The notes beneath the pieces were generated by a model. That model made no database searches, was not told the origin of the DNA, and was given only the letters and a program-made list of their open reading frames with translations. From assembly GCF_000373365.1 (NCBI RefSeq), contig NZ_KB891243.1, forward strand, positions 1 to 37,359: 37,359 nt of DNA, written 5' to 3'. Every line of letters starts with the position of its first letter. Within the stretch, counting starts at the first letter, position 1. The DNA is from Parafrankia discariae. Lineage in GTDB: Bacteria > Actinomycetota > Actinomycetes > Frankiales > Frankiaceae. Below, one piece after another: positions 22,943 through 37,359 of the stretch. Made by a program: the position numbers and the translations under genes.

Positions 22943-24696
<1,754 letters not shown>

Positions 24697-24700
<4 letters not shown>

Positions 24701-25707
24701 CGCTCCAGCTCCTGGAGGGTCTTCGAGATGTGGTTGAGGCTCAGCACCGTCATGGCGACGAACAGCCCGGGCAGCAGCGAGACCCACGGAGCGGTGATGA
24801 GGTAGTTGCGGCCGGCGGAGATGAGGGTGCCCCACTCGGCGGTCGGCGGCGCCGCGCCGAAGCCCAGGAAGCTCAGCGACGCGATCGCGATGATCGCGAC
24901 GCCTGTGTCCAGGACGGCGAGCACCGCGACCGGGCCCCACGAGTTCGGCAGCACGTGGCGCAGCAGCACCCGCAGCCAGGACGCCCCACCGCCGCGCGCC
25001 GCCTCGACGTAGGGCAGGGTCTTCACCCGCAGCACCTCGGCGCGGGTGGTCCGGGCGAATCCCGGCACGATGCCGACGCCGACGGCGACCGCCACCGGCA
25101 CCGTGCCGAAGCCCAGGGCGGTGACGATGGACAGCGCCATCAGCAGGCTCGGGATGGCGAGCAGCACGTCGACGCCCCGCATGAGCACCGCGTCGACGAG
25201 GCCGCCGAAGAAGCCGGAGATCACACCGAGCGCGAGCCCGGCCACGATCGCGATCCCGAGCGCGATCAGGGTGGCCTTGATCGTCAGCGCCGAGCCGTGC
25301 AGCATGCGCGACCACAGGTCGCGGCCGAGCTCGTCGGTGCCGAACAGGTGGCCGAGACCCGGGCTGACCAGCCGGTCGGCCGGCGCGGTCGCGTAGGGGT
25401 CGTGCGAGGTGAACAGGCCCGGCGCGAACGCCGTCACCACCACGAAGGCGATGAACAGCACCGCGATCACGAACCCCGGCCTGGAGCCGAGGGTCCGCAG
25501 GCTCGCGGCGAGGTTGGCGCGCCGTCCACCGGGCTGGGACTCGTCGAGCAGTGTCTCGCCGGCGACGGTGCCGGCTCCGGTGCCGGCCGGGGCCGTGGCG
25601 GTGGCGGTGCCGGCCGGGATCGGTCCGCTGCCGGCCGGATCCGACTGAGAGATGGCCGGGCCGGGGCCGGCGGCCGGACCGGCGAGGTGGGTAGCCGAGA
25701 CGGTCAC
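24697..25707 (-). CDS. ABC importer permease, DppC/OppC type, 336 aa
   Basis: GTG 25707 overlaps the stop of the preceding permease by 4 bp (GTGA). After an unusual 70-residue Ala/Gly/Pro/Thr-rich N-terminal extension comes a first TM helix (FVIAVLFIAFVVVTAFAP), then HLFGTDELGRDLWSRMLHG, the DppC-family signature. The binding-protein-dependent transport domain follows, with the EAA-like loop EAARGGGASWLRVLLRHVLPNSWGP that contacts the ATPase. Substrate passes inward through the heterodimer with the DppB-like partner. Confidence 0.93.
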
Positions 25708-26666
25708 GATGAGGCCACCTTCCGCCGGCCGCCCTGCACGATGCGGGGGTCCAGCAACGGATAGAGCAGATCGACCAGGAGGTTGACGAAGACGAAGACG
25801 GCGGCCGCCAGCGAGACGATCGCGAGCACGACCGGGACGTCCTGGGCCAGCACCGCCTCCTGGGCGAGCTTGCCGAGGCCGTTGCGGGAGAACACCGTCT
25901 CGACGACGATCGCGCTGGTGACGGTCAGGCCGACCAGGACGCCGAGGATGGTCAGGGCGGGCAGCAGCGCGTTGCGGAAGCCGTGCCGCCACTGCACCGC
26001 CGCCCGGGAGAGGCCCTTCGCGCGTGCCGTCACGATGTAGGGCTGGCGGAGCGTGTCGTCGAAGCTGCGCATCAGCACCTGCGCGAGCATCGACGCCGTC
26101 AGCAGCGAGATCGTGATGGTCGGCATCACCAGCGACTTCCAGCCCTTCACCCCGGTGGCCGGCAGCCAGCCGAGGTTGAACGACAGCAGCTGGATCAGCA
26201 GCAGCGCGATGAAGAACTGGGGGAAGGAAGCCCCGAACGAGGGCAGCCGGGTCAGGAACAGCCGCGCCGGCCGCCACCGCACGTAGGCGGCCAGGTAGGC
26301 CAGCCCCAGCCCGCCCACCAGCGAGAGGGCGGCGGCGGCGATGCTCAGCGCGACCGTGGGGCCCAGCCGGTCGCCGATGAGGTCGGCGACCGGCTGCTGC
26401 TTGGAGATCGAGTCACCGAAGTCTCCGTGCAGGAAGCCCCACAGGTGGGAGAAGTACTGGTTCAGCACCGGACGGTCCAGGCCGTACTGGGCCATCGCGG
26501 CGTGCAGCTGGGCGGGAGTGAGGCTGTCGGTCTCGATCCCCGCCGCTCCCAGTTGCAGGGCGACCGGATCGCTCGGCAGCAGGTAGAGGACCGCGAAGGT
26601 CACGGTGTAGGCCGCCCAGAGCACGACGAGCGCCTGGGCGAACCGACCGAGGACGTACCGAGTCAT
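25704..26666 (-). CDS. ABC importer permease, DppB/OppB type, 320 aa
   Basis: ATG 26666, with ribosome-site-like AGGAGA upstream inside the 10-bp gap after the binding-protein gene. YVLGRFAQALVVLWAAYTVTFAVLYLLPSDPV is the DppB-type first helix. YGLDRPVLNQYFSHLWGFLHGDFGDSI and TARAKGLSRAAVQWRHGFRNALLPALTILG are the periplasmic-loop and ATPase-coupling signatures. Family members transport oligopeptides, nickel, glutathione or small organic molecules. Confidence 0.94.
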   Translation of the reverse strand: MTRYVLGRFAQALVVLWAAYTVTFAVLYLLPSDPVALQLGAAGIETDSLTPAQLHAAMAQYGLDRPVLNQYFSHLWGFLHGDFGDSISKQQPVADLIGDRLGPTVALSIAAAALSLVGGLGLAYLAAYVRWRPARLFLTRLPSFGASFPQFFIALLLIQLLSFNLGWLPATGVKGWKSLVMPTITISLLTASMLAQVLMRSFDDTLRQPYIVTARAKGLSRAAVQWRHGFRNALLPALTILGVLVGLTVTSAIVVETVFSRNGLGKLAQEAVLAQDVPVVLAIVSLAAAVFVFVNLLVDLLYPLLDPRIVQGGRRKVASS

Positions 26667-26676
26667 CAGAGTTCTC

Positions 26677-28347
26677 CTACTGCTGCTTCCAGACGTCGTT
26701 GAGCTTCAAGAAGCTCTCCGACGTGAAGGCGAAGCCGTGGACCTGGCCGCTGACCCCGGCGAACTGCACCCGCTCGAACTGCGGGAACGACACGCCCTGG
26801 TCGATGAGCAGGTTCTGCAGGTCGGCGTAGCCCTGCTTAATCGTCTCCGGGTCGGTGGTCTGCGCCGCCTTGGCGAACAGCCCGGTGAGCTCCGTCAGGG
26901 TCTCCGGGGTCGTCGCGTTCGTCGCGAGTGCCTTGGAGTTGGCGTGGGCCGGGTCGAGGATGAACTGCAGCGCGCCCGGGTCGGCCCGGGTGAAGTAGCT
27001 GCTGGCGAGGTCGTAGTCGCCGTTCTTGTACTTCGCGGGAAGCTCGGCCGTCGTCGTGGTGTCGAGCACGAGGTCGATGCCGACCTGCTTGAGCTGGTCC
27101 TGGATGAGCTCGGCGCCGACGTTGAACGTGGTGGTCGGCGTCTTCAGCGTGAGCTTCTGGCTGTCCTTGTAGCGGTAGCCGTCGGGGCCGAGCTTCCAGC
27201 CGGCCTCGTCGAGGAGCTTGCCCGCGCCCGCGGGGTCGTGGCGGAGCTTGTCGGCCTGCGACACGAAGTACGGCGTCGTCGAGTCGAAGGCGCCGGAGAC
27301 GACCGGGTAGTCGGCGCCGAACACCGTCTTGGCGTAGCTCTCGAGGTCGAACGCCTTGTACAGCGCCTTGCGGACGTTGAGGTCGGCCAGCGGGCGCCCC
27401 GCGGTCACGTTGGGGAAGAACACCGACGCCGGGCCCGGCAGCGGCCGGGACTCCACGGTGTCACCCGACTTCGTGATCAGCTCGCGGTCCTCGACCGTGA
27501 ACGGGTTACGCGGCCAGGCGATGTCGACGGCGCCGCTGAGCAGGTTGCCGGTGCGCACGCTGTCCTCGGCGACATAGCTGAACTCGACGGTGTCGAGGTG
27601 GGCCTCGCCGGTGTTCTCCGACAGCGCCGAGCCCCAGGCGTAGCCCGGCCGCCGCTTCAGGACGGTGAGCTCGTTGGGCTTGTAGCTGGCGAGGGTGAAG
27701 GCGCCGGAGCCGATGTAGCCGCCGAGGCAGCGCTCCTTGCTCGTCTTCTGGTACGAGGCCGGTGAGATGATCGCCAGGTTGGTCGTCGAGGTGGCCTGAA
27801 GGAACGAGGCGTTCGGCGTCGAGAAGACGATCTTGACGGTGCTCGGGTCGACGACCTCGCTGTGGTCGTAGCCGAGGATGTAGCTGGCGCCGTAGGCCGT
27901 GCCCCCGGTCTCCGCCACGACGGCCTTGTCGCCGTCGAAGTTGGCCTTGACCGCCGCGGCGTCGAGCGGGGTGCCGTCGCTGAACGTGACCCCGTCACGC
28001 AGGTGGAAGGTGTACTCCCTGCCGTCCGCGCTGATCTCCCACTTCTCGGCGAGCCAGGGCTTGATCTCGCCGGTCTTGGGGTCCTGGTCGGTCAGCGAGT
28101 CGGCGACGTTGCGGATGACGGTGCGGTGCTCGATCCAGTAGGTCTGGAACGGGTCGAGGCAGGTGAACGTCGGGTTGTCCGGGAAGAACGCGACTTTCAG
28201 GGTGCCGCCGGCGACCGGCGCTCCGGCGATGTCGTTGGCGGCGCCGTCGTCACCGGAGGAGCCGCACGCGCTCAGGCCCAGTGCGGCCGTGACGGCCAGG
28301 GCCGTGGCGATGAGGCCGGGCCGGGGCGAGCGAAGGCGTCGTTTCAT
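26677..28347 (-). CDS. family 5 extracellular solute-binding lipoprotein, 556 aa
   Basis: ATG 28347 begins a Tat/Sec-like basic N-terminus (MKRRLRSPRPG), a hydrophobic helix and lipobox LSAC (Cys near residue 27). The mature protein has the peptide/nickel-binding (SBP_bac_5) fold: GGTLKVAFFPDNPTF, LAEKWEISADGREYTFHLRDGVTFSDGTPLDAAAVKANFD and RKALYKAFDLESYAKTVFG. It captures the substrate outside the membrane and delivers it to the two permeases. The operon context (SsuD-like and acyl-CoA-dehydrogenase-like flavoenzymes, Cys leader peptide) points to an organosulfur compound instead of a peptide (inference). Confidence 0.94.
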   Translation of the reverse strand: MKRRLRSPRPGLIATALAVTAALGLSACGSSGDDGAANDIAGAPVAGGTLKVAFFPDNPTFTCLDPFQTYWIEHRTVIRNVADSLTDQDPKTGEIKPWLAEKWEISADGREYTFHLRDGVTFSDGTPLDAAAVKANFDGDKAVVAETGGTAYGASYILGYDHSEVVDPSTVKIVFSTPNASFLQATSTTNLAIISPASYQKTSKERCLGGYIGSGAFTLASYKPNELTVLKRRPGYAWGSALSENTGEAHLDTVEFSYVAEDSVRTGNLLSGAVDIAWPRNPFTVEDRELITKSGDTVESRPLPGPASVFFPNVTAGRPLADLNVRKALYKAFDLESYAKTVFGADYPVVSGAFDSTTPYFVSQADKLRHDPAGAGKLLDEAGWKLGPDGYRYKDSQKLTLKTPTTTFNVGAELIQDQLKQVGIDLVLDTTTTAELPAKYKNGDYDLASSYFTRADPGALQFILDPAHANSKALATNATTPETLTELTGLFAKAAQTTDPETIKQGYADLQNLLIDQGVSFPQFERVQFAGVSGQVHGFAFTSESFLKLNDVWKQQ

Positions 28348-28402: not shown

Positions 28403-29590
28403 CTACTGGCCGAGCAGCCGGCGGCCGGCGGCGAGCAGGGCGGTGTCCTCCTGCGGCGGGTGGACCCGCACGCACAGGACGTCGCGGAGCAGGCGCTCGA
28501 ACGGCTGGTGCCGGGTGAGCGCCGGGTTGCCCAGCGCGGCGACCGCGGTGTTGACCGCGGCGATCGCCGAGCGGGCGATCTGGATCTTCAGCAGCGACAG
28601 CTGCGGCAGGTGCGTGGTGTCGCCCGCCTCGGCGCGCAGGAGCGCGCCGAACAGAAGGGTCTCGGCCTGGGCGATCTGCGCGTCGATCTCCCCCGCGACG
28701 ACCTGGATGCGTTCGGTCGTCGCGATCGGGCGGCCGAGGGCGGTGGGCACCCGCTCGCGGGTGAACCGCGTGAAGGCGGTGCGAGCCGCCCGGGCGACGC
28801 CGACGTAGAGCGCCGGGTGGCCGAAGCCGCCGATACCCGCCGCCGCGGCCGGGTCCCGGTACACACCGTCGGGACCGCGCGGGATCTCGACGAACGCCTC
28901 GACCGGCAGCCGGACGTCCTCGTACCTGACGTCATGGGTGTTGGACGCCCGCAGGCCGAGGTGGTCCCACGTGTCGACCCAGGCGATCCCGGGCAGGTCG
29001 CCCGGGACGATCACGTGGCCGACGCGGGGATGCGCCGGGTCGCCGGCGGGCTCGTCGGCGACCGCCCACACGAGGTGGTAGGCGAGCGCGGTGCCGCCGG
29101 TCGCGTACGCCTTGTGGCCGTTGAGCACCCAGCCGTCGGCGGTGCGGGTCGCCGTCGTCGTCGGCAGGCCGCCGCGGGCCGGGGCGCCGAGCTCGGGTTC
29201 GGCGCGGACGGCGTTGGCGAGCGTCGGCCCCTCCGCGCTGCGGCGCAGGAAGTCGGCGTAGTACGCCTCGGGCCAGTGGCCGGCCGCGGCCTGCGCCTGG
29301 TGGGTGCCGAGGTTGTTGGCGGCGAGCAGCGCGACGGACGCGTCGCCCTCGCCGAGGGCGACGAGGATGCGGGCGGTGTCCACGAGCCCGAGGCCGGGCC
29401 CGCCGTACCGCGGGCCCACGGTCGCGGTCAGCAGCCCGGCGCGGTGCGCGGCCGCCAGGCCCCGGACCGGGATCTCGCCCGTGCGGTCGTACGCCGGCGC
29501 GACCGCGGCGATCTCGTCCGTGACGGCCGCCAGCGCCTCCGGGGACAGGTCGGGGCGGATCAGCTCGGGGGTGCGCACCGCCGTCGTCAT
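28403..29590 (-). CDS. acyl-CoA-dehydrogenase-fold flavoenzyme (DszC/SfnC-like), 395 aa
   Basis: ATG 29590 overlaps the monooxygenase stop by 4 bp. Fold features: YGGPGLGLVDTARILVALGEGDASVALLAANNLGTHQAQ, LNGHKAYATGGTALAYHLVWA, TWDHLGLRASNTHDVRYEDVRLP and a helical C-terminus ending in AALGNPALTRHQPFERLLRDV. It lacks the usual acyl-CoA-dehydrogenase catalytic Glu context and resembles the group that includes DszC, SfnC-like proteins and other reduced-flavin N-/S-monooxygenases. In sulfur-assimilation operons such proteins accompany SsuD/SfnG-type enzymes. No flavin reductase is encoded nearby, so FMNH2 would have to come from elsewhere. It should act in the cytoplasm on the imported organosulfur compound or an intermediate. 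Confidence 0.85.
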   Translation of the reverse strand: MTTAVRTPELIRPDLSPEALAAVTDEIAAVAPAYDRTGEIPVRGLAAAHRAGLLTATVGPRYGGPGLGLVDTARILVALGEGDASVALLAANNLGTHQAQAAAGHWPEAYYADFLRRSAEGPTLANAVRAEPELGAPARGGLPTTTATRTADGWVLNGHKAYATGGTALAYHLVWAVADEPAGDPAHPRVGHVIVPGDLPGIAWVDTWDHLGLRASNTHDVRYEDVRLPVEAFVEIPRGPDGVYRDPAAAAGIGGFGHPALYVGVARAARTAFTRFTRERVPTALGRPIATTERIQVVAGEIDAQIAQAETLLFGALLRAEAGDTTHLPQLSLLKIQIARSAIAAVNTAVAALGNPALTRHQPFERLLRDVLCVRVHPPQEDTALLAAGRRLLGQ

Positions 29591-30789
29591 CGCGGGCCGG
29601 CCAGCGCGGCGGGGTCGAAATTGGGGGCGAGGGCGCCGGGGTGGGCGTCCTGCAGTGTGCCGCGCTGCCCGGTGGCGGCGCGGTGCGCCAGCTCCTGGCG
29701 GACGAGGGGCAGGATGTGCCGGCCGTAGTCGACGGCGTCGGCGAGGGTGTCGTAGCCACGGATCGAGACCAGACTGGCACCCTGGTCGACGTAGTCGAGG
29801 ATGGCGGCGGCGACCGTCTCCGGGCTGCCGACGAGGGCGGTGGAGGCACCGGCCGCGTTGGTCGCGGCCGCGGTGCGGGTCCACAGCGCGCGGTCGTAGA
29901 CCTCGGCCCGCTGGGCGAACTCCAGCGCGCGCTGCGAGCCGACGTTCTGCGGCGAGCCGGTGAGGAAGCGCGCGGGATGACCGCCCGCGTTGTACGTCTT
30001 CTCGATCTTCGCGACGTAGTCGAAGGCCTTGCGCCAGGCGAGGTCGTCCGTCTTGGCGATGATCGGGCGGAAGGTCACCCAGATGCGCGGCCGGTCGGTG
30101 CGCCCGGCCGCGGCGGCGATCGCGTTGACCCGGTCGATCTCCGAGCGCAGGTCGGCCAGCGGCTCGCCCCAGAAGCTGAAGATGTCCGCCTTGGCCCCGC
30201 CGACCTGGAACGCGGCGTCGGACTGGCCGCCGATCGAGATCGGGATGGTGTCGCCGTACGGCCGGAAGCCCGGACCGAACTCGTCGAACTTGTAGAACTC
30301 GCCCTCGTGGCTGAACGGGCTGGTCTCCGACCAGGACCGGCGCAGCAGGTCGATGTACTCCGAGGTGCGCGCGTAGCGGCGGTCCTTCGGCAGGTAGTCG
30401 CCGTGCCGCGCCTGCTCGGCGTCGTTGCCGCCGGAGATCAGGTGGACGACGGCGCGGCCCTCGGTGAGCTGGTCGAGGGTGGCCAGCTTCTGCGCCCCCA
30501 CCTGCGGGATCGTGGTGTTCGGCCGCAGCGCGACGATCGGGCGGAGGTTCTCGGTGAGCTGGCCGACGGCCGCGGCGATGACGAACGAGTCGGCGCTGTT
30601 CGAGCCGTAGGGGAGCAGGGTGTAGTTGTAGCCCGCCTCCTCGAGCGAGCGAACGTACCTGCGGAAGTACGGCAGGTCGATGCCCCGGCTCGGCACGGGA
30701 TTCAGCTCGGTCGACGGGTTGAGATGCGACAGGCTGATGAACTCGACCTGTGAGGACGCGGTCGCGGGGATCTCCGTCGGACTGGTCAT
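29587..30789 (-). CDS. LLM-class FMNH2-dependent monooxygenase, SsuD-like, 400 aa
   Basis: ATG 30789 is chosen because AAAGGA precedes it by seven bases; an in-frame GTG at 30816 would add nine residues. The protein follows alkanesulfonate monooxygenase SsuD closely in pattern: LRPNTTIPQVGAQKLATLDQLTEGRAVVHLISGG, then RYARTSEYIDLLRRSW, FRPYGDTIPISIGGQSDAAF and FSFWGEPLADL. SsuD oxidises alkanesulfonates to aldehyde and sulfite with reduced flavin. Here it is the first gene of an operon with a DszC/SfnC-like enzyme and a peptide-type importer, downstream of a Cys leader ORF, so release of sulfur from an imported sulfonate or sulfone is the likely role (inference). Confidence 0.88.
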   Translation of the reverse strand: MTSPTEIPATASSQVEFISLSHLNPSTELNPVPSRGIDLPYFRRYVRSLEEAGYNYTLLPYGSNSADSFVIAAAVGQLTENLRPIVALRPNTTIPQVGAQKLATLDQLTEGRAVVHLISGGNDAEQARHGDYLPKDRRYARTSEYIDLLRRSWSETSPFSHEGEFYKFDEFGPGFRPYGDTIPISIGGQSDAAFQVGGAKADIFSFWGEPLADLRSEIDRVNAIAAAAGRTDRPRIWVTFRPIIAKTDDLAWRKAFDYVAKIEKTYNAGGHPARFLTGSPQNVGSQRALEFAQRAEVYDRALWTRTAAATNAAGASTALVGSPETVAAAILDYVDQGASLVSIRGYDTLADAVDYGRHILPLVRQELAHRAATGQRGTLQDAHPGALAPNFDPAALAGPR

Positions 30790-31052
30790 GCCAGGGTCCT
30801 TTCGATGCAGCTTCACGTGCGCGGGCGGTTCCGGTGCGCGACGGGTCAGGCGCGCGCGGAACGGCTCCGATGCGGTCCTGGACGGGTCCAGGTCGGGCCG
30901 GCGGCGGGTGTCAGGGGTGATCGACGGGAACGCGGCCGGCGGCCACGCACGGAGAGACAGGCCTGCCGGCGGCCGGGTGGACGGGGGAACCGGCAGACCG
31001 GCTCACGGGTGCGCCGATGCCCGGGACCGGAGAGCGCCATCCGGTGACCGAC

Positions 31053-31100
31053 CGCGGATCGGCGGGATCAGGCCCACGGGCCGGAGCGCGCCGATCCGCG
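31053..31100 (-). promoter_or_regulatory. 12-bp hairpin in the operon leader, candidate attenuator
   Basis: CGCGGATCGGCG (31053-31064) is exactly complementary to CGCCGATCCGCG (31089-31100); GGCCC/GGGCC (31071-31082) forms a nested inner stem. It lies between the leader-peptide stop (31231) and the SsuD-like start (30789). Position suits a transcription-attenuation or Rho-linked control hairpin. There is no U-run. Confidence 0.5.
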
Positions 31101-31230
31101 TCACAGCCGCGGCGCGAACACGGTCAGGACAGTCGGGAGCGAGGGGACGGGCAGGCGGTGCCGGTGGCAGATCCGGCCGCTGCGACGCGCCGGACGTCGT
31201 GTCGTGGTGTGGCTGGCTGTCGCGGGCCGC

Positions 31231-31314
31231 TCAGCGGGGGCGACAGCAGGCGGTGGTGAGGAGACCGAAATCGACGAACCGCCGACGGGTCAGCACCGAC
31301 CGGGCGGTTGGCAC
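31231..31314 (-). CDS. cysteine-containing leader peptide, 27 aa
   Basis: A minus-strand ORF from GTG 31314 (or in-frame GTG 31296) to TGA 31233-31231. It contains LTRRRFVDFGLLTTACCRPR at its end. This matches the small leader peptides found ahead of sulfur-assimilation genes in actinobacteria, whose common form is a basic stretch, a (H/F)VD(L/F) core and Cys codons just before the stop (consensus about LTxRRHVDLxRxxxAxC). Two adjacent Cys codons (TGC TGT) lie four codons before the stop. Ribosome stalling there under Cys shortage would be expected to alter downstream structure. The start codon has no obvious Shine-Dalgarno sequence. It lies 440 nt upstream of the SsuD-like gene on the same strand. 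Confidence 0.75.
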   Translation of the reverse strand: MPTARSVLTRRRFVDFGLLTTACCRPR

Positions 31315-31399
31315 GCGCGTCGCGTACCGACGCCGTGTGGCGTCGCGCGCCGTGCACGGACCGTACGCGCCCGTGCCCAGGTTCCCCGACATGTCCATC

Positions 31400-31428
31400 A
31401 GAATGGTGGAGAATATGAATGCTGTCCA
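31400..31428 (-). promoter_or_regulatory. candidate promoter of leader peptide and SsuD-like operon
   Basis: Minus strand: TGGACA (31428-31423), 17-bp spacer, CATTCT (31405-31400). The -35 box matches TTGACA at five of six positions; the -10 is weaker. It lies in the AT-rich patch and predicts a start about 80 nt before the leader ORF. Confidence 0.45.
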
Positions 31429-31566
31429 GCGTTGAGTTGCGATCGAACCGATCCGGATACGCGATAGATCGTTTATGGTGATGCAGGTGGTGGGGTTGGG
31501 AGCCGGTTCGGCCTGGAGCCCGGCCGGGGGTGTTCAGGGGGCAGGGGCGTCCGGGACACTCGCGGT

Positions 31567-32487
31567 ATGGCGACCCGCCACCCCGTGCCGCGGCAACCTT
31601 CGGTGACGATCGCCGTCCTCGGCAGCGCGAACATGGACCTGGTGGTCCGCCAGCCGCGGCTGGCCCGCCCCGGCGAGACGCTGTTCGGCTCCTCGTTCAC
31701 GGCCGTCCCCGGGGGCAAGGGCCTCAACCAGGCGGTCGCGGCGGCCCGCGCGGGCGGCCGGGTCCGGTTCGCGGGAGCCGTCGGCGACGACCAGTTCGGG
31801 GCCGCGCTCCGCGCGCGGCTGGCCGCCGACGGGATCGACACCGCGGCGCTGGCGACGGTCGGAGCACCGACGGGAGTCGCGGCGGTCTCCGTCGTCGACG
31901 GAGGCGAGAACAGCATCGTCGTCGTCCCCGGAGCGAACCATGCTGTCATGGCCCTGGACGACGCCACCCGCGACCTGATCGCGCGGTCCGGGCTTCTCGT
32001 CACGCAGTTCGAGCGGCCGCTGGGCCTGGTCGGGGAGGCCCTGGCAGCCGCCCGTGCCAGCGGTGTCACCACGGTGCTCACCCCGGCGCCCGTCCTGCCC
32101 GCCCCCGCGGACCTGCTGGAGCTTGTCGACATCCTCGTCCCCAACGCGACGGAGGCCTGCGAGCTGGCCGGGACCGACGACGAGACGGCTGCCGCCCGCG
32201 CGCTGAGCCGGACCGCCGGAACCGTGGTGATGACCCGCGGCCCGCGCGGCGTCCTCGTGGCCCGCGGTGGCGCCGTGCTGGCGGAGGTGCCCGCGCGCCA
32301 GGTCGAAGCGGTCGACACCACGGCCGCCGGCGACACCCTCGCCGGGGTCATGGCGTCGGTGCTGGCGGCCGGGCAGGGTCTTGAGCGCGCGGTGCGGGTG
32401 GCGGTCACCGCGGCGTCGATCGCGGTGACCCGCCCGGGTGCCTCCGTCTCCATGCCCACCCGGGCTGAGATCGCCGCACTGCTCTGA
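31567..32487 (+). CDS. rbsK: ribokinase, PfkB family, 306 aa
   Basis: ATG 31567; no strong ribosome site is visible, so the transcript may be leaderless or weakly translated. PfkB motifs: VLGSANMDLVVRQPRLARPGETL, PGGKGLNQAVAAAR (signature 1) and DTTAAGDTLAG with catalytic Asp256, the same DTTAAGDT form as Escherichia coli ribokinase. It should phosphorylate D-ribose, or a related sugar, at O5. No ribose transporter or LacI-type regulator accompanies it, so it is probably a stand-alone salvage enzyme. A different PfkB sugar or nucleoside kinase is the alternative. Confidence 0.87.
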   Translation: MATRHPVPRQPSVTIAVLGSANMDLVVRQPRLARPGETLFGSSFTAVPGGKGLNQAVAAARAGGRVRFAGAVGDDQFGAALRARLAADGIDTAALATVGAPTGVAAVSVVDGGENSIVVVPGANHAVMALDDATRDLIARSGLLVTQFERPLGLVGEALAAARASGVTTVLTPAPVLPAPADLLELVDILVPNATEACELAGTDDETAAARALSRTAGTVVMTRGPRGVLVARGGAVLAEVPARQVEAVDTTAAGDTLAGVMASVLAAGQGLERAVRVAVTAASIAVTRPGASVSMPTRAEIAALL

Positions 32488-32982: not shown

Positions 32983-34908
32983 TCAGCCCTTGGCATCGGA
33001 CCACCGCCGGACAACCGCGATGTCGACGACGAAACGGACGCCGCTGCCGGCGGCCCAGTATCCGGCGGTGGCGTCCAGCGCCCGGCGGGTCGCCTGCGCG
33101 GCCGCCTCCGCCCGCGCGGCCGGCACGTGCAGCAGCAGCTCGTCGTGCAGGCAGAGGACGATCGCGCCGCCGAGCGGGGCGATCGACTGGCGCACCGTCA
33201 CCGCCCACGCCTTGAACAGCTCGGCGGCCGCGCCCTGCACGACGGCGTTGCGCGCGAACCGGCCCCAGGCCGTGCCCACCCTGTTCTCGTCGGCGGCGTC
33301 GCCGACCGCGGCGAACCGCAGCGGGATCCGCCGCCCGCCGAACGTCCGCAGCGGCGCTGGCGCCGCCGGCGACGCCGGTCGAGTCGCGCCCGACGGGTTC
33401 GGCGCGGGCCGGCCCAGGGCGGCGGCCCGGCCCGTGGCGTCGGCGGCGTCCAGGTACGCCAGCGCGACCGGGTACGTCTCGCGCATCTGCCGCAGGGCCT
33501 GGCCGGCGACGCCGGTCGTCTGCCCGTACATCGCGGCGAGCACCGCGACCTTCGCCGTCGGCCGGTCGACGCCGAGGCTGGCCGCGACCGGGGCGTAGAG
33601 ATCGTCCTGGTGGGTCGCCCGGGTCAGCTCCGGGTCGCCGGAGACCACGGCCAGCACCCGCGGCTCGATCTGGCCGAGGTCGGCCCGGACGAACCGGTAC
33701 CCGGGCTCGGCGATCACCACGACCCGCAGGTCGGCCGGCAGGTTGTGCAGGCCGGCGGCCGCGGTCATCCGGCCGGCGGCGCCGTCGCTGCCGTGCCACT
33801 CGCCCCGCAGCCGGCCGTCGGCGCCGACATGGGTGTCGAGCCACCGGTAGCCGTAGGTCGTCGCGATCCGCTCGGCCCTGCGCCAGGTGAGCAGCGCCTC
33901 GACGACCGGGTGCACGCCGCGCAGCGCGCTCAGCCGGCCCGAGCGGGTGTCCGGCACGTCGATGCCCACCGTGGCGAGCGCGGACCGCACCGCCGCCGGG
34001 TTACGCAGGTCGACCGACGTACCGAGATGGCGCAGGACGGGGGCGTCCCGGGCCCGCCGGGCCGCCGTGATCGCGGCGTCGCCGTGCGGCCGGGGCCCGA
34101 CGGCGGCGGCGATCGTCGCCTCGGCGGTCTGGCGGTCCACCGGCAGGCCGTCCCGTCGCAGCTCGCGGGCGAGGAGCTCGGCGCCGGACTCGGCCCGCGC
34201 GGTCAGGACGGCCAGCGGGAGCCCGGCCGGCCGGGCCCGCGGGTCGGGCAGCGCGCGCAGTGCCTCCTCCTGGGTGGCCGTGACGGTGAGGGCCAGCTGG
34301 GCGAGCCGGCCCGCCCGGGCCAGCCGGGCACCGGTGCCACCCGGGCCGGCACCGCGCAGCGTCTCCTCGGCCCAGCCGGCCCGGAGCTGGCCGTCCGGGC
34401 CGATCGGGTCGTCGGCCGCGCCGGCGTCCGGGCCGCCCGGATGATCGACCAGCGCGAGCAGGTCGAGCTGGCCGTCGGCGCGGGGCCGGGGCGGCGCGGG
34501 CGGGAGCGGCAGGCCGCGCGCGCCGGCCCAGACCGCCGCCGGATCATCCCGGTGCCCCCCGTGCAGGACGCGGTGCGCCGCGGCGAGATCCCAGCACACG
34601 GCGGGGAGGGGAGCCCGCCCGCCACCGGCGCCGGTGGCCGCGTCCCCGCCGGCGCCCGGCGTGGCCAGCAGGGCCCCGGTGCCGTGCGCCGACCACCAGA
34701 CCCACCGGGGGCGGAGGGCGTGTTCCACCTCGGCCAGGACGGCGGCGGGGTCGGCGGGCCGGGCCCAGACCGCACCGGCGCACGCCAGCGCCACCCCGAC
34801 ACCCGAGACCGGGACCACCGCCACCAGGGCGCCCCGCCCCACCCCGGCCGCCCGCAGCGCGGCCACGGCGCCGGCCGGCGTGCCGGCGGGAGGGGAGACG
34901 GGGACCAC
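32983..34908 (-). CDS. family A DNA polymerase-like protein (bifunctional 3'-5' exonuclease/polymerase type), about 641 aa
   Basis: GTG 34908 is chosen because AGAGGA lies seven bases upstream. The N-terminal 170 residues are a divergent exonuclease-like region (VCWDLAAAHRVLHGG; ARGLPLPP). The C-terminal palm and fingers keep polymerase I motifs: motif A RADLGQIEPRVLAVVSGD (Asp410), motif B RPTAKVAVLAAMYG and motif C CLHDELLLHV (His588-Asp589-Glu590). AGRMTAAAGLHNLP is the RxxSxxPNxQN-equivalent. It lacks the 5' nuclease of PolA and has Ala/Pro-rich insertions (APNPSGATRPASPAAPAP). Such proteins are widespread in actinobacteria beside the main PolA and are thought to act in repair. It stands alone here. 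Confidence 0.85.
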   Translation of the reverse strand: MVPVSPPAGTPAGAVAALRAAGVGRGALVAVVPVSGVGVALACAGAVWARPADPAAVLAEVEHALRPRWVWWSAHGTGALLATPGAGGDAATGAGGGRAPLPAVCWDLAAAHRVLHGGHRDDPAAVWAGARGLPLPPAPPRPRADGQLDLLALVDHPGGPDAGAADDPIGPDGQLRAGWAEETLRGAGPGGTGARLARAGRLAQLALTVTATQEEALRALPDPRARPAGLPLAVLTARAESGAELLARELRRDGLPVDRQTAEATIAAAVGPRPHGDAAITAARRARDAPVLRHLGTSVDLRNPAAVRSALATVGIDVPDTRSGRLSALRGVHPVVEALLTWRRAERIATTYGYRWLDTHVGADGRLRGEWHGSDGAAGRMTAAAGLHNLPADLRVVVIAEPGYRFVRADLGQIEPRVLAVVSGDPELTRATHQDDLYAPVAASLGVDRPTAKVAVLAAMYGQTTGVAGQALRQMRETYPVALAYLDAADATGRAAALGRPAPNPSGATRPASPAAPAPLRTFGGRRIPLRFAAVGDAADENRVGTAWGRFARNAVVQGAAAELFKAWAVTVRQSIAPLGGAIVLCLHDELLLHVPAARAEAAAQATRRALDATAGYWAAGSGVRFVVDIAVVRRWSDAKG

Positions 34909-35003
34909 GCGGTCATCCTCTCCCGGCCCACCGACAGGTGGGCAGGTCGGTGCCAACAGGGCGATCGGACGGTTCCGCGACCGAAAGCGGGGGGTCAGCG
35001 GCG

Positions 35004-35385: not shown

Positions 35386-35874
35386 ATGGATGCGCACACC
35401 AGTAAGGCCCCGCGGCTGTCGGACCCTCAGCGCCGTGCGCTGACCTTCGCCCACGCGGGTGTTCTGTACTACCGGGCCGACAGCTTCGGTCACGGCTACT
35501 ACGGGGAGCGGGACTGCGCTCCCGTCCGCATCCGCTGGAACACCTTCGAGGCGATCGAGCGTCGCGGTTGGGTCGTCAGGGAGCCAGCGGGAGACCCGAG
35601 CCTTCACGACGGCACCGTCACCATCCTCGCATACGTCCTGACCGACGCGGGACGCACGGTGTCGCGCTGGATGAGGCCCCCTCCGGGGAGACAGCGCCGC
35701 AGGACGAGGCCCCCGTCACGGTCGATGTTGCCGATCTCCGGCTTGGCGTGCCCACGTCGCTGGGCTGGGTCGACTACCTCTCTCGTCTCGACGATGGCGG
35801 GGCCATCGTCTACTACCTCCCGTTCGATCTCTCCGCGAAGACCTGCCGCGCGTGGCCTGCGGGAAAGCGGTTGA
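35386..35874 (+). CDS. mobile-element protein, winged-helix-like N-terminus; C-terminal part possibly out of frame
   Basis: ATG 35386 lies at the methyltransferase break, without a ribosome site. The first 96 residues are protein-like: LSDPQRRALTFAHAGVLYY, TFEAIERRGWVV and AYVLTDAGRTVSRWM. This resembles small helix-turn-helix proteins of actinobacterial integrative elements and phages. From about residue 97 the frame becomes Arg/Pro/Ser-rich (GRQRRRTRPPSRS), the shadow of the next frame, and no stop occurs until 35874. So a stop or frame has probably been lost near 35665-35690, and the real product may continue in the 35667-35963 frame. Confidence 0.5.
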   Translation: MDAHTSKAPRLSDPQRRALTFAHAGVLYYRADSFGHGYYGERDCAPVRIRWNTFEAIERRGWVVREPAGDPSLHDGTVTILAYVLTDAGRTVSRWMRPPPGRQRRRTRPPSRSMLPISGLACPRRWAGSTTSLVSTMAGPSSTTSRSISPRRPAARGLRESG

Positions 35875-35963
35875 CGCTCGTTCCCTGCCCGCACATCCCC
35901 GGCATCTTCGATCGCTCCCACTGTGCGAAGTGCGGTCACGAGCTGGGGAGCGTGGCCGCGTGA
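35667..35963 (+). CDS. mobile-element protein with C-terminal zinc-ribbon-like motif, start uncertain
   Basis: The frame has no ATG or GTG at its apparent beginning; CTG 35667 or a distant TTG at 35568 are the only starts before a late internal GTG. It reads DEAPSGETAPQDEAPVTVD, then GWVDYLSRLDDGGAIVYYLPFDL and a Cys/His cluster CPHIPGIFDRSHCAKCGHEL. It is either the second half of a frameshifted protein of about 192 residues starting at 35386, or a gene with an unusual start. Its stop overlaps the recombinase start (GTGA at 35960-35963). Confidence 0.5.
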   Translation: MDEAPSGETAPQDEAPVTVDVADLRLGVPTSLGWVDYLSRLDDGGAIVYYLPFDLSAKTCRAWPAGKRLTLVPCPHIPGIFDRSHCAKCGHELGSVAA

Positions 35964-37089
35964 GGCCCACCATCACGCTCTGGTCGGACAATCGGGACGC
36001 CGCGTACGGTTCTGGGGTGGTTCGCAAGCTGCGCACGATCGGCTACCGCCGCATCTCCGACGATCGTGAAGGGCTGGAAGCCGGCGTCACCCGCCAGAAA
36101 GAGGACATCCGGGATCTTGCCGCGCGGCGTGACGACGTCGAGCTGATCGACGTTCTGACCGACAACGACCTGTCGGCCACGAAGGACTACCGGCCGGAGT
36201 TCGAACGCATCCTCGCCATGGCGCAGGCCGGGGAGATCGACGCGGTGATCGCGTGGACGTCGAACCGCTTCCTGCGTAACCGGCCCGACCGGATGCGCGT
36301 GATCGAGCTGCTCAAGGCCCGCAACGTCCGGCTGATTCCGGTCCGGGGCAACACCATGGATTTCACCTCCGCCGACGGCCGGATGATGACAGACATCATC
36401 TTTTCCATCGACGCGGGAGAGGCCGAGCGCACAGCGGAGCGTGTCGCACGGGCCGCACAGCAGCGGGCAGAGCAGGGCCGCCACCACGGCGGACGCCGGG
36501 CCTTCGGCTACGGGACGATCGTCGGCACCGACCACGCTGGCAAGCCCATCCGGGACTTCCACGCGGTCATCCCAGAAGAAGCCGCAGTCCTCCGCCGCAT
36601 CGCTGCCGATGTGCTGGCAGGCATACCGTTGGGGGCCATCGCGCGCCAGCTCGACGCGCGAAGGCGTGGCGACCGTGACCGGTCGTCCGTGGGACCCGAC
36701 CACACTCAAGGAGATGATGATCAACCCGCGGTTGATCGGCATGCGCGGCTACCAGACCCGCGCCACCCGCCGCTGCACGGGAACCATCGCGGTCATGGGC
36801 GAAGCACAGTGGCCCGCGATCCTGGATGTCGACACCTGGGAGCAGATTCGGGCGATCCCGACCGACGCATCGCGGCGGACCAACACCAACGCCGAGAAGG
36901 TTCGGCGCGTGCTGGCCGGTTTCGTCTACTGCGCCTCCTGTGGGCACAATCTGACCGGGAACGGCGCGAACGGGAAGCGGCTCTACTGCCAGGGGCGCAA
37001 CGGCCGCTGTGCGGCCAAGGTCCGGATCGGGGAACGCTTCGTCGTCGAGCTGGTAAGCCTCGCCGTGCGCAAGCGTCTCGACGAACTAG
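35960..37089 (+). pseudogene. serine recombinase/integrase, frameshifted and truncated by an insertion sequence
   Basis: GTG 35960 overlaps the upstream stop and has GGGGAG nine bases before it. The catalytic domain is intact: IGYRRISDDREGLEAGVTRQ with the nucleophilic Ser, DLSATKDYRPEFERIL and AGEIDAVIAWTSNRFLRN. The recombinase domain begins (GGRRAFGYG; IPLGAIARQLD), but near 36655-36665 the reading frame changes. The continuation (EGVATVTGRPWDPTTLKEMM; INPRLIGMRGY) and zinc ribbon (YCASCGHNLTGNGANGKRLYC...GRC) are in a second frame. The coding sequence stops at CTAG 37086-37089, where the IS630-type element begins; only VPHP and a stop are added. The normal coiled-coil C-terminus is missing. 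Presumably the old integrase of the element that interrupts the methyltransferase. Confidence 0.85.
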
Positions 37090-37359
37090 TGCCGCATCCG
37101 TGAAGGTTTGCCCGTTGTGAGGGCGCGCCGGGTCGGGTCCCGCAGAGGCCTGGCTGTCCGGCTGATGATCTGTGGTGTGGCGGAACGGGTGCGGGTCCGG
37201 GAGATCGATCCGGACGAGGGGCAGCGGCTGTTGCGGATCGTGCGCCGTTCGTCGGGGTCGGTGGTGACGTGGCGGCGGGCGCAGATGATCCTGCTCTCCG
37301 CGCAGGCCATGACCCCAGGCAAGATCGCGGAGGTGACGTTCACGTCCGAGGACCGGGTC
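37088..37359 (+). mobile_element. IS630-family insertion sequence, left end (continues past window)
   Basis: The recombinase sequence ends at CTAG (37086-37089), containing the TA target typical of IS630 elements. From there unrelated DNA leads to a transposase start. The right end lies outside the window, so terminal inverted repeats cannot be checked. Confidence 0.65.
37165..37359 (+). CDS. IS630-family transposase, N-terminal part
   Basis: Open from ATG 37165 (or in-frame GTG 37177) to the right edge, 65 codons. VREIDPDEGQRLLRIVRRSS is followed by VVTWRRAQMILLSAQAM, TPGKIAEVTF and TSEDRV. This is the N-terminal helix-turn-helix DNA-binding region of actinobacterial IS630-type transposases. 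The DDE catalytic domain would follow outside the window. Confidence 0.85.
   Translation, partial: MICGVAERVRVREIDPDEGQRLLRIVRRSSGSVVTWRRAQMILLSAQAMTPGKIAEVTFTSEDRV

Follow-up and report, generated by a model that had tools for sequence, protein, structure and literature searches.

On its minus strand, the 37,359-nt stretch of Parafrankia discariae DNA analysed in the present study (contig NZ_KB891243.1; hereafter the window) carries a short cysteine-containing ORF in front of a SsuD-like operon. Comparison with related genomes indicates that the leader peptide it encodes is genuine, conserved and associated with sulfur genes, and that the start given for it in a preliminary description of the window was misplaced. 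We regard the element, with good confidence, as a leaderless leader peptide that responds to cysteine and acts as an attenuator of a probable sulfonate- or sulfone-scavenging operon, belonging to a Frankiaceae subfamily of RRxVD...C leaders. What the aligned DNA itself shows is the ORF with its conserved start and promoter spacing, selection at the level of the peptide, the association with neighbouring genes and a bias towards UGU; translation of the leader, its response to cysteine, pausing and the route from the pause to expression are what we infer for it. The surprising part of the leader, as judged from these alignments, is a near-invariant UGU whose distance from RRxVD is fixed.

Reading frame, start codon and promoter of the leader

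The preliminary description had placed at this position a 27-codon ORF, and such an ORF is present on the minus strand, running from GTG 31314 to TGA 31231 with the RRRFVDF core and the ACCRPR end as claimed. Its start did not stand, since the 27 codons form the 3' half of a leader ORF of 53 codons. The frame terminates in ...LTRRRFVDFGLLTTACCRPR with its stop at 31231, and the longer open frame holds in-frame ATG codons at 31398 and 31392. Conservation points to ATG 31392-31390 as the start, based on a gap-free alignment of 30 Frankiaceae leaders with their promoter-like hexamers (30 of 35 Frankiaceae matches, five matches without DNA being left out; the aligned ATG was picked by eye among the in-frame starts). 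GTG 31314 was rejected, as the corresponding codon is GTG in four and ATG in three of the 30 leaders. The distance from the ATG to LTRRR takes seven different values in these leaders, from 36 to 111 nt, and is always in frame and stop-free, a pattern which argues that the leader ORF is not there by chance. The leader is 48-57 codons long in 28/30. The two Cys codons, TGC TGT, stand consecutively near the end of the ORF (31248-31243), at D+8 and D+9 when residues are counted from the Asp of RRxVD. The coordinates of all features are collected in Table 1.

Table 1. Features of the leader region and operon in the window
Feature	Position	Strand	Remarks
Operator-like block with GATCGGTnnGATC, upstream of promoter	31429..31470	minus	Partly conserved in 30 Frankiaceae loci
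-35-like hexamer TGGACA	31423..31428	minus	Same letters in 24/30 leaders
-10-like hexamer CATTCT	31400..31405	minus	17-nt spacer to -35; ends 7 nt before ATG
Leader ORF, 53 codons, MSGNLGTGAYGPCTARDATRRRYATRVPTARSVLTRRRFVDFGLLTTACCRPR	31231..31392	minus	Assigned by conservation of start and frame
First Cys codon TGC (D+8)	31246..31248	minus
Second Cys codon TGT (D+9), the putative sensor codon	31243..31245	minus
Untranslated gap, 441 nt	30790..31230	minus	More C than G; little conserved in either sequence or length
TCGAAAGGA: Shine-Dalgarno-like stretch and ATG of first structural gene	30787..30810	minus	TCGAAAGG invariant in 7 aligned loci
SsuD-like luciferase-fold monooxygenase	29587..30789	minus	PF00296; TIGR03565 174 bits (cut-off 518)
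Acyl-CoA dehydrogenase-like flavoprotein	28403..29590	minus	SfnB model 87 bits (cut-off 431); start overlaps previous stop
ABC substrate-binding protein, SBP_bac_5	26677..28347	minus
ABC permease	25704..26666	minus
ABC permease	24697..25713	minus	Start approximate
Double ABC ATPase	22943..24700	minus	Named by eye from translation

The geometry of ATG and promoter is the same in 30/30 aligned Frankiaceae leaders. The -10 element reads CATCCT or CATTCT in 24/30 and the -35 element TGGACA in 24/30, the rest being near variants. Because the -10 element ends 7 nt before the ATG, transcription is predicted to start at or near the A of this codon; the mRNA of the window leader is thus probably leaderless, the promoter-ATG spacing being that of leaderless geometry. 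A generic sigma-70 scan did not recognise the -35/-10 pair of the leader. The pattern of the operator-like block occurs at 18 sites in the host's own genome (whole-genome pattern search). A divergent ribokinase-like gene (31567-32487, plus strand; named by eye) adjoins the leader promoter. Elsewhere in the window lie a family-A DNA-polymerase-like ORF (32983-34956, minus strand; named by eye) and a serine-recombinase-like frame (35852-37120, plus strand), which by eye seems to go on in another frame (36441-37103).

Conservation of the leader and its neighbouring genes

A search with a 25-residue peptide found the leader in 22/35 Frankiaceae genomes at E<=0.01: 6/6 in the own genus, 13/13 in genus g2, 3/5 in g6, 0/8 in g7 and 0/3 in the others. 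In 29 distinct sequences compared over 17 C-terminal codons, the minor-base fraction averaged 0.136 at the first, 0.032 at the second and 0.237 at the third codon position, and synonymous swaps are seen for Arg (CGN/AGR) and Ser (TCN/AGC). By this measure, selection acts at the peptide level on the C-terminal motif LTRRR[F/V/I]VD..C. Good conservation is limited to about the last 20 residues; the N-terminal half varies in length and sequence, and the C-terminal Cys count ranges from one to six. Two features that the preliminary description had singled out as unusual proved ordinary. Relatives have F, V, I, C, H, A, T, Y, S or W at the x of RRxVD, so that Phe in the place of His is one residue among many, and 27/30 Frankiaceae leaders carry Cys at both D+8 and D+9.

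Peptide-level conservation of LTRRRxVD with one or more Cys would also be expected if the peptide acted in trans, for instance as a small protein that binds metals or thiols, and not as an attenuator. We consider this very unlikely, given the changing N-terminal part and the variable number of Cys residues described above, and a near-fixed synonymous codon (TGT, see below) would be left unexplained by it.

The host assembly (7.9 Mb) holds three more good leaders besides that of the window; among 15 matches these four have E<=1.5e-8, and the remaining 11, with E from 0.03 to 4.4, were dismissed as chance. In an own-genome leader search with five matches, one (L004) was read and judged to be chance. 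The first paralogue precedes a hydrolase-like gene (by eye) and an acyl-CoA dehydrogenase, the second an FMN-reductase-like gene (by eye) and the third another SsuD-like gene, 47% identical. These paralogues also bear on the idea of a chance ORF in GC-rich DNA. Open frames are common in such DNA: a 251-amino-acid ORF lies on the other strand, and frame +2 is also stop-free in 26/30 Frankiaceae leaders, so the open frame alone is little proof at this locus. The idea is nevertheless hardly credible, as start, frame, peptide and Cys are conserved across genera, the codon-position pattern contradicts chance, three good paralogues are present in the same genome, and the leader motif was matched downstream or on the other strand in 0/56 control stretches, namely the SsuD-homologue loci described below.

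The genes that follow the leader encode a SsuD-like monooxygenase, an acyl-CoA dehydrogenase-like protein and an ABC transporter of the oligopeptide/nickel type, placing it ahead of a sulfur operon. SsuD proper was rejected for the first gene, whose score stays below the more than 518 bits that TIGR03565 needs; its closest solved proteins are alkanesulfonate monooxygenases, and it is 94% identical to its Parafrankia soli homologue. None of the acyl-CoA dehydrogenase-like and ABC transporter genes scored above an NCBIfam cut-off. The operon probably scavenges sulfur from organic compounds (sulfonates or sulfones). A SsuD-like match lies within 1.5 kb downstream in 18/31 Frankiaceae leader loci and an acyl-CoA dehydrogenase in three more; among the remainder, with neither match, five loci run out within 420 nt of the leader. 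Of 13 loci read by eye, 12 have an alpha/beta-hydrolase-like gene in first place, and elsewhere, in 12 loci again read by eye, the downstream genes were those of an LLM monooxygenase, rhodanese, substrate-binding and other sulfur-type proteins.

Conversely, we started from 56 loci bearing a SsuD homologue. An RRxVD leader was found upstream on the gene's strand at 12/56 in a wide-motif scan, open at the x of RRxVD; with only H, F, C, Y or L allowed before VD, the scan finds eight. By title, 14 of the SsuD loci belong to Frankiaceae/Frankiales, and with two left out for having less than 270 nt of upstream DNA, an RRxVD...C leader is present at 10/12, eight being of the RRRFVD/RRRFLD type, and absent at two. 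Among other families it is present at 2/42 SsuD loci, both from Pseudonocardia and ~1.6 kb upstream, and absent at 40. The check offered in the preliminary description, conservation of the ORF in relatives that keep the operon, was therefore borne out inside the family and mostly failed outside it. The leader lies 220-583 nt from the SsuD gene in six of the Frankiaceae/Frankiales loci and farther upstream in L013 and L060 (~1.8 kb), L040 (1.1 kb) and L058 (3.3 kb), so the leader may be followed first by other genes in these four. Three loci from Actinokineospora, Lentzea and Umezawaea (L017, L018 and L028) have unrelated Cys-Cys mini-ORFs, S[R/H]CC[R/P]AR, ~320-410 nt upstream of the SsuD homologue, which perhaps represent an independent Cys leader.

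Class-wide relatives and the choice of UGU at D+9

A profile of the Frankiaceae leader peptides matched 339/393 class-wide genomes at E<=1, a threshold at which weak matches include chance, and the matches fetched include RRHVD and KRRAVD leaders. Sixty regions were hand-picked among the matches listed; dropping the repeats L173-L175 left 57, of which the 46 with a GC content of at least 0.60 were used. In 37/46 of these high-GC relatives a TTGACA-like / A..T promoter lies 5-8 nt before an in-frame start (p<0.05). When 10 class-wide relatives were tested against NCBIfam leader models, four passed NF042934 (three RRHVD and one KRRAVD) and one came within 0.2 bits of the NF042933 cut-off. The window peptide had no match to NF042934 (cis_reg_atten; at least 27 bits) in its 27-, 55- or 53-residue version, and none to NF042933 or NF042936 (Ms5788A and Ms4527A; at least 45 bits). 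Among five Frankiaceae leaders, that of the window and two others had no match and two matched NF042933 weakly (14.5 and 13.6 bits). Taken together, the non-matches of the window peptide and the matches and promoters of its relatives suggest that it works like Cys leaders while lying outside the curated models. By these comparisons, the window leader is of a known and widespread kind, the actinobacterial Cys leaders, in a subfamily without a curated model, and it probably descends with them.

With the mycobacterial polycysteine leaderless sORFs (NF042933 Ms5788A and NF042936 Ms4527A), as far as the available parts of the literature describe them, the window leader shares a short ORF, predicted to be leaderless in its case, clustered Cys codons and the first place in a sulfur operon, and scores from weak to strong on those models are seen for other Frankiaceae leaders and for class-wide relatives. 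It differs from them in its RRR[F/V/I]VDFG core, the 441-nt gap to the gene, the operon that follows and the lack of an NCBIfam match. The 'putative leader peptide' of NF042934 has in common with it the core, the spacing to the last Cys and, in relatives, the leaderless-type promoter; the window peptide is nevertheless unmatched by that model. Ribosome occupancy on a mycobacterial Cys ORF was described by Shell 2015, in the portion available (PMC4633059), and cysteine-responsive attenuation by mycobacterial polycysteine leaders is attributed to Canestrari 2020 in excerpts of papers citing it (PMC13236596, PMC9031893). The preliminary description held in that the window has a conserved Cys leader ahead of a SsuD-like operon, of a kind reported in the accessible parts of these sources to be cysteine-responsive in mycobacteria; its further proposal, cysteine control of this operon through ribosome stalling at TGC-TGT, stands as a prediction. 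By analogy with these relatives of its kind, the window leader very probably responds to cysteine as well. Outside the phylum, uORFC-8-2 is a tandem-Cys leader of cysS in Rhodobacterales with predicted ribosome-mediated attenuation. According to the part of the report available (PMC8632094), it likewise has tandem Cys codons in an upstream ORF and differs in its terminator-like U run, its gene and phylum, and the dominance of UGC.

The Cys codon at D+9 is TGT in 127/133 distinct high-GC actinomycete leaders, and that at D+2 is TGC in 35/36 of the same set. This pooled set comprises all leader loci minus identical DNA (L007, a duplicate of L067, was dropped, as was one spurious extra match in L248, leaving 133 of 134 high-GC rows), and its P-values ignore relatedness. 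In three of the six exceptions TGT stands at the following codon. Among the 46 high-GC class-wide leaders, Cys at D+9 is TGT in 46/46 and Cys at D+2 is TGC in 15/15, with a background of 12 TGT to 105 TGC in 45 downstream ORFs. In Frankiaceae, D+9 is TGT in 29/30 leaders and the background is less extreme (14 TGT to 30 TGC); the ORFs of the window have 7 TGT to 31 TGC, the background ORFs being chosen by GC3 and not from annotation. A second sample gave TGT at D+9 in 24/29 leaders in the genus of G285 and 24/24 in that of G215. GC-poor relatives have it in only 6/15, so the TGT rule is one of GC-rich lineages. Synonymous codons occur at 16/17 of the other codon positions shown in the 46 class-wide leaders, the exception being D+1, where all are GC-ending. 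Since the search profile had a fixed spacing, the constancy of D+9 is partly a matter of ascertainment; the codon choice is not.

We then considered what may keep UGU at this position. The leu leader offers a precedent for a biased synonymous codon at a regulatory position: its regulatory codons are CUA, a bias explained by isoacceptors that lose charge differently (available part of PMC1183508). In the present case, however, one tRNA-Cys gene, with anticodon GCA, was found for both codons among 46 tRNA matches in the host genome, which means that UGU would need wobble reading and that the selective charging set out there, between isoacceptors, gives no reason for it. Local RNA pairing was rejected as a cause: the third base was unpaired in 33, paired A in 31 and paired G in nine of 73 leaders, changing it in silico altered the mean energy by 0.05 (28 leaders) or 0.00 kcal/mol (45 leaders), and complementary 6-mers downstream of UGU were found in 6/72 against 5.1 expected. 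The pattern suggests that UGU at D+9 serves as a hungry codon read by wobble, with the nascent RRxVD chain perhaps assisting. We tentatively propose that actinomycete Cys leaders act as a two-part sensor, in which the nascent RRxVD, ~9-13 residues behind the peptidyl centre, is combined with one UGU kept for its G-U wobble by the sole tRNA-Cys(GCA), a proposal that we hold to be possible and somewhat doubtful. No published statement of a UGU preference in Cys leaders was found in the literature available, which was partial and did not include Canestrari 2020.

Proposed mode of action of the window leader

In the mode of action that we propose, transcription would start at the leader ATG and the ribosome would load there directly. 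With enough Cys-tRNA, the ribosome would reach the stop and the operon would stay low; with little, it would pause at the last Cys codon, UGU, wobble-read by the single tRNA-Cys(GCA), and the nascent RRxVD segment would meanwhile sit at a fixed distance within the exit tunnel. Expression of the monooxygenase and transporter genes would rise as a result of the pause, and two routes from pause to expression were weighed. A terminator scan found no intrinsic terminators in the window, Rfam gave only two chance-level matches on the leader region, RNA folding of this region was slightly stronger than that of shuffles (z -1.3), and alignment of the 441-nt gap across loci revealed no useful conservation.

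One route, quite possible if tentative, is termination that is probably Rho-dependent in type. Ribosomes released at the stop would leave the C-rich gap bare, and Rho would stop the polymerase; a ribosome paused at UGU would keep Rho away or the polymerase coupled. The gap is long and variable, fitting this route as does the lack of an intrinsic terminator, and its skew of C over G, 0.16 on average, is above zero in 19/19 loci in which the gene start was found (19/30), compared with 0.00 just upstream of the promoter. However, a lean to C (0.087, sd 0.094) is also seen over the 300 nt in front of 46 SsuD homologues scored as without a Frankia-type leader, four of them with a different type of leader farther upstream, so the skew of the gap is only partly special. 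Moreover, 3/19 loci gave gaps of more than 1000 nt, whose gene starts are probably wrong, and a ribosome halted only a few codons short of the stop covers little of the gap.

The other route is translation attenuation as in Mycobacterium smegmatis, in which a ribosome paused in the Cys codons melts RNA structure hiding the ribosome-binding site of the next gene. This is the published view for the nearest characterised relatives, in the portions available of PMC13236596 and PMC9031893, and the window RNA can form a strong hairpin, GCUGUCGC/GCGACAGC with a perfect 8 bp (31216-31247, minus strand), that spans the UGU codon and the leader stop. In the window, however, the Shine-Dalgarno site lies ~430 nt away, placing a modelled ribosome footprint over TGT or over the stop left its accessibility at 0.50-0.51 compared with 0.50, and the exact hairpin arm occurs in 1/30 Frankiaceae leaders, namely the window's own, and in 0/29 others. 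We therefore regard this route as rather unlikely here, and Rho-type termination stands somewhat ahead of control at the ribosome-binding site, without proof.

These results would extend cysteine-responsive leaders to organosulfur scavenging in Frankiaceae; they correct the gene model of the window leader and point out a subfamily missed by the NCBIfam leader models. The spacing from RRxVD to Cys raises an arrest-peptide role as a possibility. If the two-part sensor is true, codon choice would tune sensitivity without a choice between isoacceptors, unlike in attenuation theory as presented in the available part of PMC1183508, and if the codon itself is the sensor, a single synonymous base change from UGU to UGC should change the cysteine sensitivity of the leader.
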